Part shown: positions 15,435 to 21,413 of the stretch, in pieces
Layout: each line of letters starts with the position of its first letter
Position numbering within the stretch: the stretch's first letter is position 1
Origin: Bacteroidota bacterium
GTDB taxonomy: Bacteria > Bacteroidota > JABWAT01
NCBI GenBank assembly: GCA_017303995.1
Contig: JAFLBE010000048.1
Location: forward strand, 1-33,001
DNA length: 33,001 nucleotides
Direction of reading: 5' to 3'
Translations under genes and position numbers: made by a program
The notes under the pieces: generated by a model
The model's input: only the letters and a program-made list of their open reading frames with translations
Database searches by the model: none
What the model was told of the DNA's origin: nothing

Positions 15435-16487
15435 CCGGAGATATAAATCCCCGTAAGCATTCCCGTTAATTTCTCTTCTCAGCTTCTTCTCTTCACTTCT
15501 CCCGTTTTCAATTCTTTTCTTCAACGCTTCAACCCAGTCTTCCTTTTTTTGTTCAACCAATTCTGCATATCCTGAAAACTGTTCCATGAAAACCGGAATA
15601 TTGGATGCAAGCACAGGTGTACCCATCCAGAGTGATTCCTGAACTTGAAGTCCGAACCCTTCATACCGTGCTGGCGCCAAAAGTGCAAGTGCACCCGACA
15701 TCCAGCGCCAGGTTTCTTCATCCGACCGGTAACCCAGAATTTTTATTTTTTCTGACTTTACTGTTTTTCTGATTGCGTCACTTTGATTTCCTGCATCGCC
15801 GATCAGAATCAGGTCAACCTCATTTTGATAAGACTCAGGAAGTGACAACCAGGCCTCAATTGCAAGAAGCGGATTTTTACGTTCATTCTGATTTCCGACA
15901 ATCAGAAAATAGGGTTTTTCCTGTAATCTGATATTCTTATGAATTTCCATTGATTCTGCAAACCGGCGAAAATCTGATCCGGGATGTGGAGAAATGACAG
16001 TCGACTGATCTTCCTTTTCAGGATGCAAATCAAGAAAATCCTGCCGGGTGGTTTCACTTACACAAACAAAGTGATCAGCCTGTTTTAAAGCTCTTTCAAT
16101 TTTCCAGCGAACTGATTTTTTTTCAGGAATCCAGTTGTGATCGGGGTGAACAAGAGCAAGATCGTGCAAAGTCAGAACTTTGATCCCCAAACGGGTTTCA
16201 GGCATCAGAAACGGAACCATTGCATTCGTAAAATGGGTGATGGCAATCTGGTCTGGCACCATGGGCAGCCACCAATACGCCCACCGGCGGTGAAGCGAAA
16301 CCTGATACGCATCGTGAACCGGAACCACACAATCAGTTGTTGAAGTAAACCAGGATTGAAACCTGATCCGGTCATCCTGAAGTAAATCTTCCTGCATCAT
16401 CTGAACCACTTTCCCGACTCCTGAAAGCCGGTGATTCAGCGGATTGACATCAAGAAGAACAAATGGGGTTGATTCTGGTGTTTTCAC
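15420..16487 (-). CDS. Glycosyltransferase family 4-like (GT-B)
   Basis: 355 aa, no signal or membrane segment. The N-terminal half opens with LLDVNPLNHRLSGVGKVVQ, the glycine-rich acceptor-side loop of GT-B enzymes. The C-terminal donor domain shows FLIVGNQNERKNPLLAIEAW, IKILGYRSDEETWRWMSGA, and the E-x7-E motif region ARYEGFGLQVQE followed by MGTPVLASNIPVF. This is the retaining GT4 pattern for NDP-sugar transfer, for instance in cell-surface polysaccharide assembly. Only this one sugar gene is present locally and it is monocistronic, so donor and acceptor remain unknown. Confidence 0.88.
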   Translation of the reverse strand: MKTPESTPFVLLDVNPLNHRLSGVGKVVQMMQEDLLQDDRIRFQSWFTSTTDCVVPVHDAYQVSLHRRWAYWWLPMVPDQIAITHFTNAMVPFLMPETRLGIKVLTLHDLALVHPDHNWIPEKKSVRWKIERALKQADHFVCVSETTRQDFLDLHPEKEDQSTVISPHPGSDFRRFAESMEIHKNIRLQEKPYFLIVGNQNERKNPLLAIEAWLSLPESYQNEVDLILIGDAGNQSDAIRKTVKSEKIKILGYRSDEETWRWMSGALALLAPARYEGFGLQVQESLWMGTPVLASNIPVFMEQFSGYAELVEQKKEDWVEALKKRIENGRSEEKKLRREINGNAYGDLYLRLLNR

Positions 16488-16549
16488 AGAACAAAAATAG
16501 AAAATGTTAGCCAGTTTGGGTATTTTTATTCTCTATTAAAAGAAAGCTG

Positions 16550-17332
16550 ATGCGGATGAAGGTGATTTCTCTTGCTACCGACCTGACCGAAATTCTCGGT
16601 GAACTGGATTTATTGTCGTCACTGGCAGGAATTTCATCAACATGCACCCTTCCCGTTCCTTCTGAAACAATTTCTGTCGTTTCAAACGGTGATCACCTTT
16701 TTCTTGACCAAATCCTTTCCCTGAAACCGGAATTAATCCTAATTTCAGGTAACCGGAACAACCCATGGACACAACTCTGTCTTGAAGCAGGACTTCCGGT
16801 TCTTCATCTTCAGCCAAAATCCATATTATCAGTTCCTGAACATCTCATTCATATCGGAAGGTTAATGGGCGTTGAAGCGCTTGCCGTTGAAAAAGCCAAA
16901 TCCTGGATCAACGAATTTAAGGCACTCCAGTATCAGGGTGCCAGAGATGTCAACCGGGTGACAGGATATATCGAGTTCGGCAGTGAATCTTATCAGCAAC
17001 CACCTGTCTGGGCTCATCAGCTTCTCGATGCAGCAGGAATCACTCCGTTATTTCCTTCTGAAAATGAGGAGGATTTTTTCAGCCGGATTCACTTTGATGC
17101 GGCTATTTTCGTTTCAGAAAACCCGTCAACTTCTGCTTCTGAATTAAAAACCATTGCCGACCGGAGAAATAAGGAAACCGGCGGATATAAATGGCACGAA
17201 GAATCCTGCTATGCACTTCCTGAAAATCAAATCACAGTTTGCGGTCCGCATCTTTTAGACGGACTCAGAGCTTTAATCAGAATCCGTGCCGGCATTGAAG
17301 CCCGTGGTCCGGTTATCAACCAACTGGATTAA
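16550..17332 (+). CDS. BtuF-like substrate-binding fold without signal peptide
   Basis: 260 aa, resembling the PF01497 periplasmic-binding fold of BtuF/FepB type: KVISLATDLTEILGELDLL, DQILSLKPELILI, a long connecting helix near VEKAKSWINEF, and a C-terminal HLLDGLRALIRIRAG. It begins directly with the first beta-strand and has no Sec or lipoprotein signal. It is therefore either cytoplasmic or exported unusually. Stand-alone cytoplasmic copies are often annotated as cobalamin-binding proteins; the ligand here is unproven. ATG 16556 is an alternative start. No btuC/btuD permease or ATPase follows. It heads a tight plus-strand cassette and lies 1 bp from the next gene. The B12-dependent nrdJ is about 4 kb downstream, a suggestive but distant link. 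Confidence 0.75.
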   Translation: MRMKVISLATDLTEILGELDLLSSLAGISSTCTLPVPSETISVVSNGDHLFLDQILSLKPELILISGNRNNPWTQLCLEAGLPVLHLQPKSILSVPEHLIHIGRLMGVEALAVEKAKSWINEFKALQYQGARDVNRVTGYIEFGSESYQQPPVWAHQLLDAAGITPLFPSENEEDFFSRIHFDAAIFVSENPSTSASELKTIADRRNKETGGYKWHEESCYALPENQITVCGPHLLDGLRALIRIRAGIEARGPVINQLD

Positions 17333-17333
17333 T

Positions 17334-17876
17334 ATGGAATTCACCACCTGGATTTTCGTTGGATTTGCATTTTTACTGGTATTAGGGCTTATTTTTAAAG
17401 CCTGGGGATCATTTCTTCCTGAGACCTTCCGTATTGAAAATTCGATTGATACGGTTACCTTTTTATCGGAAGTAACCCCTTTGTTTTTTACAGCTCAAGG
17501 TTGGATGCGGTGGTTTCCTGAGAATGCTTTACCTGGTGAAACCCTGAAGTCAATTTCTTTTTCATCTGATAATTCCCAGTTGGAATTTGAAACCCAAAAC
17601 AGGACGGTTTTTTATGATATCGTTTCTTTGGAGGCGGGTAAATATCTTTCCTTAGTCCTTTCATCCGGCGACCCCCTCAGGTCAAAGGGAATGGAAACTG
17701 GTTTTACCTTCACTATTTTTACATCCGACAAAAAAACCCGTATCCGGATTGAAGAATTCTGGACGGTAAAAGACGCCGGATATCGTCTCGGATTTCACTT
17801 TTCCCTTAAAACAGAAATTATCCGGAGACATGAAACCCTGATTTCAAACATCAAATCGGTTTTAGGAAACCGTTAA
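17334..17876 (+). CDS. Membrane-anchored protein of unknown function
   Basis: 180 aa from ATG 17334, one base past the stop of the BtuF-like gene. An upstream in-frame extension overlaps that gene and is not preferred. Residues about 5-25 (TWIFVGFAFLLVLGLIF) form one N-terminal transmembrane helix. The remaining ~150 residues are a soluble alpha/beta domain with WMRWFPENALPG near the start, alternating strands (TVFYDIVSLEAG, GFTFTIFTS, TRIRIEEFWTV) and a long C-terminal helix. The strand order and final helix recall SRPBCC/START-like ligand pockets, but this is a visual inference without a signature motif. Confidence 0.7.
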   Translation: MEFTTWIFVGFAFLLVLGLIFKAWGSFLPETFRIENSIDTVTFLSEVTPLFFTAQGWMRWFPENALPGETLKSISFSSDNSQLEFETQNRTVFYDIVSLEAGKYLSLVLSSGDPLRSKGMETGFTFTIFTSDKKTRIRIEEFWTVKDAGYRLGFHFSLKTEIIRRHETLISNIKSVLGNR

Positions 17877-17903
17877 ACCTGAATTTGCAAACTTGACTTC
17901 ATA

Positions 17904-18872
17904 ATGAAAACCTTTCCCCAACGCCTTTTTCGCTGGTTTCTCTTTTCCCTTGGCGGACTTTTACTTCTCACCGGATTTAAGTGTGAACCCTACTCTTACA
18001 CCGAAAAAATCCACGTTTATTTCAATCAGGATAATACCATCCGGGTTCTGGCAACGATTGAAACCAACGGGTATCAGCCGGAGTGGAGCGATGCAGCCAA
18101 GCGATATATTTCAGGCTATCAGGTATACCAGGATTCTCTGATGAAAGCCAACTATGCCCTCGAAACCCGGATTATGGAAGGTCAGTGGGACGATAAAATC
18201 AAAATCTATGCAGTAGAAGGCATTTTCAGGGATGATTATGACTTCATGCGGTACATGGCTCCGGATAATAAATTGTGGGATTGTTATATCGGCCGGAATG
18301 ATTCCATCTGGCGGATGACTTTCAATCTGACTGAATACCGAAAGCAAATTGCAAAATATGGCTGGGCCTACCAGATTGCCGCCAAAGCCATTATCAAATC
18401 AGGGAAAATCGGGTTTACGGCTGCCGGAATCGACTCCTTTTATTTTGCCAAAGTTTTTCCTCAAATTAAAAAAGAACGGTCAGAACTTCAGCAGATCGCC
18501 CGTGAGGTGACGTGGGGAATTTTATCTGAATCAGAAAGAATTGTCATTCCGTTTAACCAAACCCTTTTCAGCCTGCAGAAATACCGGTTTCACGTTGGCG
18601 GAATGGCCTATGAACTTTCCTCTCCATTTTTAAAACAGGATGTCGACGGTAGTCTTGTTTACTTTCCGTATCCTGAAACTACCCGGAATATGCTTTCCTA
18701 CGCGGTCTATTCTCCATTCAGGCCAAACTATAAACTCAGTCAGATTTCTGATGCAGTCGATGCTGAAGTTCCTGACTTCATTTCCTTCAAATGGAAACGG
18801 CTTCCGGTTCGGGTTGGCGAAGGTAATGCCGACCGTATTTACATCATTCCGGTAACTGAAGTGAAAAGGTAA
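17904..18872 (+). CDS. Exported protein of unknown function
   Basis: 322 aa. The N-terminus (RLFRWFLFSLGGLLLLTGF) is a signal sequence; Cys at residue 28 follows in GFKCEP, but Lys before the Cys makes a classical lipobox unlikely. The mature part starts with a beta-strand TEKIHVYFNQDNTIRV, has a long helical middle with many Tyr/Trp, and ends in strands such as RIYIIPVTEV. No known domain recognised. The stop TAATG overlaps the next ATG by one base, coupling it to the degenerate activator. It is probably periplasmic or outer-membrane associated. Confidence 0.7.
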   Translation: MKTFPQRLFRWFLFSLGGLLLLTGFKCEPYSYTEKIHVYFNQDNTIRVLATIETNGYQPEWSDAAKRYISGYQVYQDSLMKANYALETRIMEGQWDDKIKIYAVEGIFRDDYDFMRYMAPDNKLWDCYIGRNDSIWRMTFNLTEYRKQIAKYGWAYQIAAKAIIKSGKIGFTAAGIDSFYFAKVFPQIKKERSELQQIAREVTWGILSESERIVIPFNQTLFSLQKYRFHVGGMAYELSSPFLKQDVDGSLVYFPYPETTRNMLSYAVYSPFRPNYKLSQISDAVDAEVPDFISFKWKRLPVRVGEGNADRIYIIPVTEVKR

Positions 18873-19834
18873 TGCCCTATTTTCCGCAGCTGATCACTCT
18901 TGATGACCTCACTTTCCACTCTGCGGAACTCAGAGAAATACGCCAGCTTGCAGACCGGGTTTCAGAATCTACCCTTTCGGTTTTTATCCACGCCGAAAAA
19001 GGTGCCGGGGCGTTTCAGATTGCCAATTACATTCACACAAAATCTGACCGGCAGAATCATCCTTTTATTTACTTCAACCCCGAAAAACTCAGTCGTGAAA
19101 GTCAGCAGCGTGAACTGTTTGGCGACTACATCAGGGGCTTTTACTACCCGGGGAAACTTGAACTCGCCAATGGCGGAACGTTACTGATTGATCCTGTTGA
19201 AGCGATTGATGCCGGACTCCAGTACAAATTATTCAGAGCCCTGAACACCCGTGAATTTGAAGTTGGTGATTCCGGCCGGATTGAAAAAACGGACTTCAGG
19301 ATCATTTCTGCCAGCCGGTATTCAACCAGTGAACTTTCTGAGTCATTACTTTTCAGACAGGATTTATTATTCCGGATTGAAGGTGTTCCCTTTTCTGTTT
19401 CCCCCCTTCGACAACGTGGTGCTGATATTTTAAACATTGCTCAAAGAATGGTTGAGAAAATCTGTACATTCCGGAAAATCCCGGTAAAAAAATTCGGACA
19501 TACGGCCATTCAGGCAATACTGGCTTATGCCTGGCCCGGAAATCTGGAAGAGCTGTTTACCGTTCTCGATAAAGCCCTGCTGATACCCGATACCACCGAA
19601 CTCAGCGGACTTGATTTGGTTTCACCCGTATCCAACCAACCGATTTACCGGCCTGCCGTGAAAAGCACCGACGTTTTTTCAATGGATAATAACCGGATCA
19701 TCACTTTGGATGAAGCCCGGGAATTCCTGTTTAAAAAAGCACTGAAACTTTCCGGTGGAAATGTAGATAAAGCCGCCGAACTGATCGGCATCAGCCGTGC
19801 AACGGCTTTCAGAATGCTGCAGAAAAAAGAATAA
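18872..19834 (+). CDS. Degenerate sigma-54 activator-like protein with Fis-type HTH
   Basis: 320 aa. Without a receiver or GAF domain it starts directly in an AAA+ domain of bacterial enhancer-binding-protein type: ELFGDYIRG (81-89), KLELANGGTLLID (95-107), FRQDLLFRIEGVPFSV (161-176) and PLRQRGADI. The working parts are lost. Walker A reads AEKGAGAF (41-48), with Ala47 in place of Lys. Walker B ends D107-P108, not Asp-Glu. The L1 loop is about five residues shorter than usual and has no GAFTGA. The C-terminus keeps a clean Fis-type helix-turn-helix, GGNVDKAAELIGISRATAFRML. It should bind DNA but not hydrolyse ATP or remodel sigma-54 holoenzyme, perhaps acting as a repressor or oligomeric DNA binder. 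Last gene of the cassette. Confidence 0.88.
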   Translation: MPYFPQLITLDDLTFHSAELREIRQLADRVSESTLSVFIHAEKGAGAFQIANYIHTKSDRQNHPFIYFNPEKLSRESQQRELFGDYIRGFYYPGKLELANGGTLLIDPVEAIDAGLQYKLFRALNTREFEVGDSGRIEKTDFRIISASRYSTSELSESLLFRQDLLFRIEGVPFSVSPLRQRGADILNIAQRMVEKICTFRKIPVKKFGHTAIQAILAYAWPGNLEELFTVLDKALLIPDTTELSGLDLVSPVSNQPIYRPAVKSTDVFSMDNNRIITLDEAREFLFKKALKLSGGNVDKAAELIGISRATAFRMLQKKE

Positions 19835-19906
19835 CCCGGGCAACCGCAAAGTCCCAAAGGCGCAAAGAAATACAAATTTTTAGTTTAAGGACATGATGAA
19901 ATTCCC

Positions 19907-19921: not shown

Positions 19922-19945
19922 AAACTCATATTGTTTCTAACCTTT

Positions 19946-20036
19946 CAACCCCATTCGGGGTTGTGATTTGCGTTGTGCATTTTGTAACCACCGGGTTATG
20001 ACCCGGGGCTATTCACCTTAAATCCTTTCAGGATTA
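19946..20036 (+). repeat. Direct repeat copy A of a ~90-bp palindromic element
   Basis: Three hairpins in order: AACCCC-ATTC-GGGGTT, CCGGGTTATGACCCGG and AATCC-TTTC-AGGATT, separated by conserved spacers (GGGGCTATTCACCTTAA just before the third). The same order recurs at 20292-20380 with near-identity outside one variable ~25-bp spacer. Confidence 0.75.
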
Positions 20037-20180
20037 ATTATTCCATTTACCATTCAACCTTTGCATTCATCCTCTCAATCCTGAATAGCCCTGTTTAATA
20101 AATGTATTCGCATTCCGCCCCAAAGAAAAGTTGTGTTTTCAATGAGGGCAGTGGCCGGGCGGGTTGGGTGGTGTTTAATA

Positions 20181-20218
20181 CTTTCTACAAACGGGTCAGC
20201 CCTATGGGCTTACAAAAC
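20181..20218 (+). repeat. Dispersed intergenic repeat, copy 2
   Basis: CTTTCTACAAA, GGGTCA, an AGCCC-TAT-GGGCT palindrome and TTACAAAA: the same module order as 11512-11550 after tRNA-Val, about 8.7 kb away. Confidence 0.6.
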
Positions 20219-20291
20219 CTATTTCCATTTACCATTATGTTCCCATCCCTTGCACCCTGAATATCCCTGTTAAAAATGTATTTTGGTTTTT

Positions 20292-20380
20292 CAACCCCAT
20301 TCGGGGTTGGGATTCGTATCGGCCATTTGGAACCACCGGGTCATGACCCGGGGCTATTCACCTTAAATCCTTTCAGGATT
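20292..20380 (+). repeat. Direct repeat copy B of the ~90-bp palindromic element
   Basis: Same three hairpins as copy A: AACCCC-ATTC-GGGGTT, CCGGGTCATGACCCGG (a perfect palindrome in this copy) and AATCC-TTTC-AGGATT. The two copies differ mainly in the spacer between hairpins one and two. The direct orientation allows recombination between them. Confidence 0.75.
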
Positions 20381-20470
20381 TTCTATTTTGAAAGTAAGTC
20401 TCTAACTTATAAATCCAAACTAAGGACATCCTTCTATCTTCTACCTTCTCACTTCTAACTTCTAATTCCC

Positions 20471-21073
20471 ATGACCCTTTGGATCGCTACCGGCAACGAA
20501 AAAAAGAAAAAAGAAATCCTCGCTTTGCTGGATGGATTTCCGGTTGAACTGAAAACCCTTGCAGATCTTGGAAAACCCTTCGAGGTCGTTGAGGACAAAC
20601 CCGATTTTACCGGAAATGCAATTAAAAAAGCGACAGAGCTTTATCAGCTAACCGGAGACTGGTGTCTGGCAGATGATTCCGGTTTAGAAGTTGATTATCT
20701 GAACGGAGAACCCGGAGTTTTTTCTGCCCGATATGCCGGTGAACCTTCAGACGATTCCCGGAATAATCAAAAACTTCTGAATGCCATCCGGTCAATTGAA
20801 AAACCAAAAGCACAATTTCATTGCAGTATTGCTTTGGCTGGTCCCGGCGGAATCTTTACTTCGGAAGGAATTATCCGTGGATATTTGATCCATCACCTGC
20901 AGGGAACAACCGGATTTGGTTACGATCCGCTTTTTGTTCCGGATGGATTTTCAGAAACATTTGCACAACTGGGTGCAGAGATTAAAAATAAAATCAGTCA
21001 CCGGGCTCAGGCTCTGAATCAGATAAAGCCAATCCTGCTTAACAAATTAAACCCAAAAAGGTCTGATAATTAA
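20471..21073 (+). CDS. rdgB: dITP/XTP pyrophosphatase (RdgB/HAM1)
   Basis: 200 aa, the normal size of the homodimeric cytoplasmic enzyme that hydrolyses dITP, ITP and XTP to the monophosphate and pyrophosphate, keeping deaminated purines out of DNA. The signature elements are complete: WIATGNEKKKKEI at the N-terminus, ADDSGLEVDYLNGEPGVFSA with the acidic metal ligands, ARYAGE, the FGYDPLFVP substrate loop, and KISHRAQAL near the C-terminus. It precedes nrdJ by 340 bp with its own probable terminator. The two are not obviously co-transcribed but share a theme of dNTP pool quality. Confidence 0.96.
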   Translation: MTLWIATGNEKKKKEILALLDGFPVELKTLADLGKPFEVVEDKPDFTGNAIKKATELYQLTGDWCLADDSGLEVDYLNGEPGVFSARYAGEPSDDSRNNQKLLNAIRSIEKPKAQFHCSIALAGPGGIFTSEGIIRGYLIHHLQGTTGFGYDPLFVPDGFSETFAQLGAEIKNKISHRAQALNQIKPILLNKLNPKRSDN

Positions 21074-21141: not shown

Positions 21142-21158
21142 AGTCTCATTTTGAGACT
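21142..21158 (+). terminator. Hairpin after rdgB
   Basis: Perfect 7-bp stem AGTCTCA (21142-21148), loop TTT, and TGAGACT (21152-21158), followed by GTTTCG. The T-run is weak. It lies about 70 bp past the rdgB stop and before the candidate nrdJ promoter, so it may separate the two transcripts. Confidence 0.5.
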
Positions 21159-21187
21159 GTTTCGTGGATAACTAATCAGCAATTAAC

Positions 21188-21219
21188 TTGAACGCTTCGG
21201 CTACTTAGACTTACCTTCG
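21188..21219 (+). promoter_or_regulatory. Candidate promoter of nrdJ
   Basis: TTG (21188-21190), 21 nt, then TACCTTCG (21212-21219), a 7-of-8 match to TAnnTTTG. The predicted start near 21226 would give nrdJ a leader of almost 190 nt. Confidence 0.4.
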
Positions 21220-21413
21220 TAAACGCTTCCACAGCCCCAGGATAGATTTGTGTCTCCAAGGCACCACATCCAACACTTACTGGAAGTTACCCTTTTTATC
21301 AGTCTGAACCCGGTGGTATACGAAATCCGGTGTTGATTTGCAGTGTCTTACCGTTGGGTCCGGACTTAAAGGGTCAAAATCACAGAAAAACGCAATCCAA
21401 CCAGGAGTTTTCA
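21220..21413 (+). other. Long untranslated leader of nrdJ
   Basis: Nearly 190 nt between the candidate promoter and the nrdJ ATG. It includes a GAACCCGGTGG...AAATCCGGTG stretch (about 21305-21333) and ends in AGGAG at 21403-21407, six bases before ATG 21414. B12-dependent reductases are sometimes under cobalamin riboswitches, but the conserved B12-box (GCCACTG) and its partners are not seen in the right order. It could hold an atypical regulatory RNA or be unstructured. An in-frame ATG at 21330 would extend nrdJ by 28 residues but lacks a ribosome site. Confidence 0.35.

Follow-up and report, generated by a model that had tools for sequence, protein, structure and literature searches.

What can a sigma-54 activator still do once the residues that power it have been lost, and would a bacterium keep it? 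The question is raised by a gene in the window analysed here, a stretch of 33,001 nucleotides from a Bacteroidota bacterium of the class JABWAT01, whose product (hereafter the regulator) combines an NtrC/PspF-type AAA+ domain with a Fis-type helix-turn-helix (HTH) and has no receiver or sensor domain. In sigma-54 activators the GAFTGA motif touches sigma-54 and the -12/-11 region (PMC7175178), ATP binding needs the Walker A lysine, and hydrolysis needs the Walker B aspartate (PMC10274813). In this work we compared the regulator with its orthologs and with the canonical activators of the same class, and analyzed its gene neighbourhood. From these analyses we conclude that it is probably a class-specific, sigma-54-independent transcription regulator, in which a dead AAA+ domain would serve as an oligomerisation scaffold, and which would act at housekeeping-type promoters, probably those of its own neighbourhood.

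Results

Domain layout and gene neighbourhood

The regulator gene is an unbroken frame with an ATG start (Table 1). Its product passes the curated Pfam cut-offs for Sigma54_activat (PF00158; 98.7 bits, cut-off 20.2), AAA_lid_14 (41.8 bits, cut-off 27) and HTH_8 (25.0 bits, cut-off 22), and the order of these domains is the usual activator architecture. Against the named equivalog families it remains under every cut-off, i.e. TyrR (103 vs 576 bits), DhaR (148 vs 551 bits) and NtrC (123 vs 559 bits). The AlphaFold model of the regulator has low confidence (pLDDT 64) and is too poor for mechanistic use; a Foldseek search with this model confirmed an NtrX/ZraR-type fold and nothing more.

The class was sampled as four genomes belonging to two genera, and the gene order is the same in all of them: a single-TM protein, an exported partner, the regulator, rdgB, nrdJ, and other ribonucleotide reductase genes. 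Among 394 phylum genomes searched, the partner is confined to the same four genomes of the class; it is better conserved between genera than the regulator, and it has no match in Pfam or NCBIfam. The structure model of the partner (pLDDT 55) is likewise too weak to support conclusions on mechanism. At 19943-20387, in the interval from the regulator gene to rdgB, a composite repeat (40 + 62 nt) occurs twice, with the copies about 345 nt apart. In G002 this interval is shorter, and in G001 and G003 it almost disappears, so that the repeat units seem to be recent insertions.

Table 1 Features of the regulator locus, with positions numbered from the first letter of the window
Feature	Position	Strand	Basis or remark
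Single-TM protein, first gene of the conserved cluster	17334..17876	+	Synteny
Exported or membrane-anchored partner, class-specific	17904..18872	+	1-base overlap with the regulator gene; 68-92% identity
Regulator, predicted pseudo-ATPase AAA+ plus Fis-type HTH, degenerate sigma-54-activator-like	18872..19834	+	320 aa
AAA+ core, residues 16-178	18917..19405	+	Pfam Sigma54_activat, alignment
Degenerate Walker A AEKGAGAF, Ala47 at the Lys position	18992..19015	+	Alignment; Ala/Ala/Phe/Ser in four orthologs
Shortened L1 loop, 5-residue deletion, GAFTGA absent	19124..19150	+	Alignment
Degenerate Walker B TLLIDP (D107-P108)	19178..19195	+	Alignment; DP/DP/DP/EP in orthologs
Arginine-finger positions R162 and R168, conserved	19355..19375	+	Invariant in 37/37 aligned proteins
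Sensor II position, Glu226 replacing Arg	19547..19549	+	Glu in 4/4 orthologs, Arg in 33/33 canonical proteins
Fis-type HTH, residues 284-317	19721..19822	+	Pfam HTH_8; identity to G003
rdgB/Ham1-type nucleotide pyrophosphatase	20471..21073	+	Downstream in 4/4 genomes; overlaps the regulator gene in G003
Conserved palindrome GTCTCATTTTGAGAC, candidate operator	21143..21157	.	Comparison of four genomes
Promoter-like element TTG-N20-TACCTTCG before the ribonucleotide reductase gene (nrdJ)	21188..21218	+	Conserved in four genomes

Loss of the ATP-site and sigma-54-contact motifs

We aligned 37 proteins, i.e. the regulator, its orthologs and 33 canonical activators taken from three of the class genomes. 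All 33 canonical proteins keep the Walker A lysine, an acidic residue following the aspartate of Walker B, and a G[AS][FY]T motif in L1. The preliminary description of this locus had reported a Walker A motif with alanine for the catalytic lysine, a Walker B motif ending in Asp-Pro, and a shortened L1 loop without GAFTGA, in an intact frame with a clean Fis-type HTH; the alignment, the 320-aa frame and the HTH_8 match agree with all of this. The Walker A motif, GESGTGKE-like in the canonical activators, reads AEKGAGAF in the regulator, with the P-loop glycines G44 and G46 retained. Walker B reads LLIDPV against the LFLDEI-like canonical form, in which the motif is LDE or LDD, and a gap of five residues in L1 separates FGDYIRGFY-----YPGK from the FGYEKGAFTGANARKPGK-like canonical sequence. 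To these losses the comparison adds the replacement of the first P-loop glycine by Ala41, of the sensor II arginine by Glu226, and a changed sensor I, which is ASR, with R149 at the asparagine position, versus the ATN/ATH/ATK motif.

Nearly invariant columns across the canonical proteins number 38, and 21 of them are kept in all four orthologs, including R162 and R168; the main nucleotide and sigma-54 contacts are among those lost. Compared with a sigma-54-dependent enhancer-binding protein, the regulator has the arginine fingers but lacks GAFTGA, the Walker A lysine, the Walker B Asp-Glu pair and the sensor II arginine. It does have the features of the TyrR/VpsR/Rhodobacter NtrC-type regulators, i.e. 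an activator AAA+ domain with a disrupted L1 and an intact Fis HTH. Given that GAFTGA and the Walker A and B motifs are lost, activation of the sigma-54 polymerase in the usual manner is not expected.

The sigma-54 gene rpoN is present in the four genomes of the class, which rules out a genome-wide loss of sigma-54 as the cause. Each genome also encodes about 12 activators with strong domain scores; where their motifs were read, in three of the genomes, these are normal. Since sigma-54 and intact activators remain, the loss belongs to the regulator and not to the sigma-54 system of the lineage. A search for a strong sigma-54 promoter near the gene cluster found none.

A single lineage under purifying selection

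Each of the four genomes has one ortholog at a conserved syntenic position; those from the three other genomes are 96, 78 and 47% identical to the regulator. GAFTGA is deleted in every ortholog, and the other losses are common to them as well (Table 1). The variation at the lysine position is as expected of an old loss, and because one loss pattern recurs in four genomes whose orthologs are 47-96% identical, neither chance nor sequencing error can account for it. In the phylogenetic tree the four orthologs form one clade with a support of 100/100, whose stem is long (2.26 changes per site). No ortholog from outside the class was found among the 394 phylum genomes, where the next best match scored 190 bits versus 583-655 bits for the orthologs; a scan of genome contigs gave matches solely in two relatives of the same genus.

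For the whole gene, the dN/dS ratio (NG86) against the closest relative, G002, is 0.030 (0.0375 for the AAA+ core, 0.033 for the HTH), and the value for the regulator falls inside the range of the adjoining nrd and rdgB genes (0.014-0.058); on older branches dN/dS is unreliable because dS is near 1 or saturated even among near relatives. Against G003, which belongs to the other genus, the AAA+ core is 45% identical, compared with 66-83% for orthologs of canonical activators, and the HTH is 70% identical (canonical orthologs, 56-91%), from which it follows that the motor or catalytic constraint has been relaxed, the DNA-binding constraint has not, and the gene is maintained.

No intact ortholog occupies the same locus within the four genomes of the class, therefore the loss is not recent; a recent loss or a pseudogene is also ruled out by the sharing of the losses together with the dN/dS of 0.03. 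The idea put forward in the preliminary description, that these losses denote a stable repurposed family and not decay, is thus sustained: the orthologs share the missing lysine, the Walker B proline and the absence of GAFTGA at a low dN/dS, and the close intact homolog that would have spoken against it was not found in the class. As judged from these comparisons, the regulator is a lineage of single origin, with purifying selection on both domains, a fixed genomic place and an intact HTH.

Compared with the sister genome G002, the region 15500-19850 has a DNA identity of 69-88% per 500 nt, whereas its flanks are mostly at 92-98%. This higher divergence suggests either that recombination replaced the region with DNA of a more distant relative or that it has changed faster.

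A conserved palindrome upstream of nrdJ

Between rdgB and nrdJ, the four genomes carry the palindrome GTMTCANNNTGAKAC, always exactly 30 nt upstream of a TTG-N20-TACCTTCG element that resembles the Bacteroidota -33/-7 promoter. In G003 both arms of the palindrome change together (GTCTCA..TGAGAC to GTATCA..TGATAC). In each genome it is the sole exact match outside coding sequence, the remaining exact matches being inside unrelated genes. Elsewhere in the phylum there are matches with 2-3 mismatches, and none of those examined is near a ribonucleotide reductase or rdgB gene; in the 5' portion of the cluster, no palindrome proved to be conserved across genomes. A DnaA-box-like sequence, GTGGATAAC, is located directly after the palindrome, within 21143-21218.

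The usual regulator of ribonucleotide reductase genes is NrdR. It was not found in the four genomes of the class, and was therefore discarded as the protein that binds the palindrome. The palindrome module and the regulator have the same phylogenetic range, which is weak evidence for a link because a single clade is involved; the half-site of G003 is one base off while the recognition helix RATAFRM is identical, and this is a mild mark against the regulator as the binder. We tentatively consider the palindrome the best candidate target of the regulator, the link itself being a guess. A broader proposal, which we hold as doubtful, is that, NrdR being absent, the regulator takes its place across the class in the local control of nrdJ and the nucleotide-pool genes, acting through this single candidate operator and using the dead AAA+ ring only as a scaffold or nucleotide sensor.

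The nrdJ leader has a hairpin at 21301-21366 (AGUCUGAACCCGGUGG...CCGUUGGGUCCGGACU) in the four genomes, with a shuffle z-score of -2.25 and several pairs kept through changes. It matched no Rfam family, and is possibly a regulatory leader RNA.

Discussion

The regulator most likely works as a motor-less DNA-binding protein. Its ancestor would have been an activator of the NtrC/PspF kind, from which the present receiver-less form would have lost productive ATP binding and hydrolysis as well as the contact with sigma-54. The AAA+ domain may have persisted as a scaffold for oligomerisation, keeping several HTHs together, and the protein, bound to operator DNA, would repress or activate transcription from housekeeping-type promoters, probably near its own genes. 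The conservation of the HTH and the retained arginines of the hexamer interface fit a DNA-binding oligomer; given that the fold, these arginines and the HTH are all kept, an oligomeric DNA-binding regulator at housekeeping promoters is the most economical reading. The preliminary description had suggested that the protein may act as a repressor, bend DNA or co-assemble with an active activator.

The invariance of both arginine-finger positions next to the loss of the ATP-side residues could also point to a subunit that mixes into the rings of an intact activator in the same cell, giving arginine fingers and a DNA-binding domain, with no ATP site of its own, and tuning or blocking sigma-54 activation; every genome of the class has sigma-54 and intact activators with which this could occur. 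However, none of the four genomes has an activator gene beside the regulator, the canonical paralog closest to it shares only ~31% identity, and the arginines may be kept just for structure, so that we regard a mixed ring as unlikely. FleQ and VpsR, which bind c-di-GMP, provide a model for a different possibility, i.e. that the AAA+ pocket was reshaped to sense another ligand, for instance a nucleotide or second messenger, and thereby controls DNA binding. The purifying selection that still acts on the AAA+ core, the glycines left in the P-loop, and the conserved neighbours rdgB and the ribonucleotide reductases, which are nucleotide-pool genes, would agree with such a sensor, but the orthologs have Ala, Phe or Ser in place of the lysine, which means that this pocket wall is not constant, and sensors I and II are lost; this possibility seems improbable to us. 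Finally, the absence of several catalytic motifs might be taken to denote a decaying pseudogene or a sequencing artefact, and this is extremely improbable for a frame that is intact in four genomes down to 47% identity, has a dN/dS of 0.03 and conserves its start overlap with the upstream gene.

An oligomeric regulator without a motor has several known relatives. PspF shares the receiver-less layout of AAA+ plus HTH, but it is an active sigma-54 ATPase and has the motifs missing from the regulator. TyrR, PhhR, DhaR and HupR have N-terminal sensor or receiver domains and, like the regulator, an activator-type AAA+ domain and a Fis-type HTH without a working GAFTGA; these proteins are reported mainly as GAFTGA variants, whereas the regulator has no sensor domain and has also lost Walker A and B and sensors I and II. 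VpsR from Vibrio cholerae, which the regulator sequence matched in the PDB (7v2b), is likewise without GAFTGA, but it carries a receiver domain at its N-terminus and is a c-di-GMP-driven protein, whereas the regulator has no receiver. TyrR, PhhR, DhaR and HupR act at sigma-70 promoters (PMC3162934), and VpsR regulates sigma-70 promoters, reportedly without an ATP requirement (PMC10274813). In the NtrC proteins of Rhodobacter capsulatus and Caulobacter the GAFTGA loop of L1 is deleted, as in the regulator, and they regulate sigma-70 promoters; nonetheless, Rhodobacter NtrC still needs ATP binding, and Caulobacter NtrC needs intact Walker A and B residues (PMC10274813). These ATP-site residues are gone in the regulator, whose ATP site is more degraded than in these two NtrC proteins.

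The Pfam name "sigma-54 interaction domain" does not guarantee a contact with sigma-54, a warning for annotation. Sigma-54-independent descendants of these activators are already known, i.e. NtrC of R. capsulatus and Caulobacter, TyrR, DhaR, HupR and VpsR (PMC10274813, PMC3162934); here the ATP site and the sigma-54 contact are lost together in a conserved family. The best-studied NtrC proteins without GAFTGA still require either ATP binding or Walker residues, and a conserved family with neither an ATP site nor a sigma-54 contact, whose AAA+ core is under selection, offers a clean test of the role of the ring other than hydrolysis.
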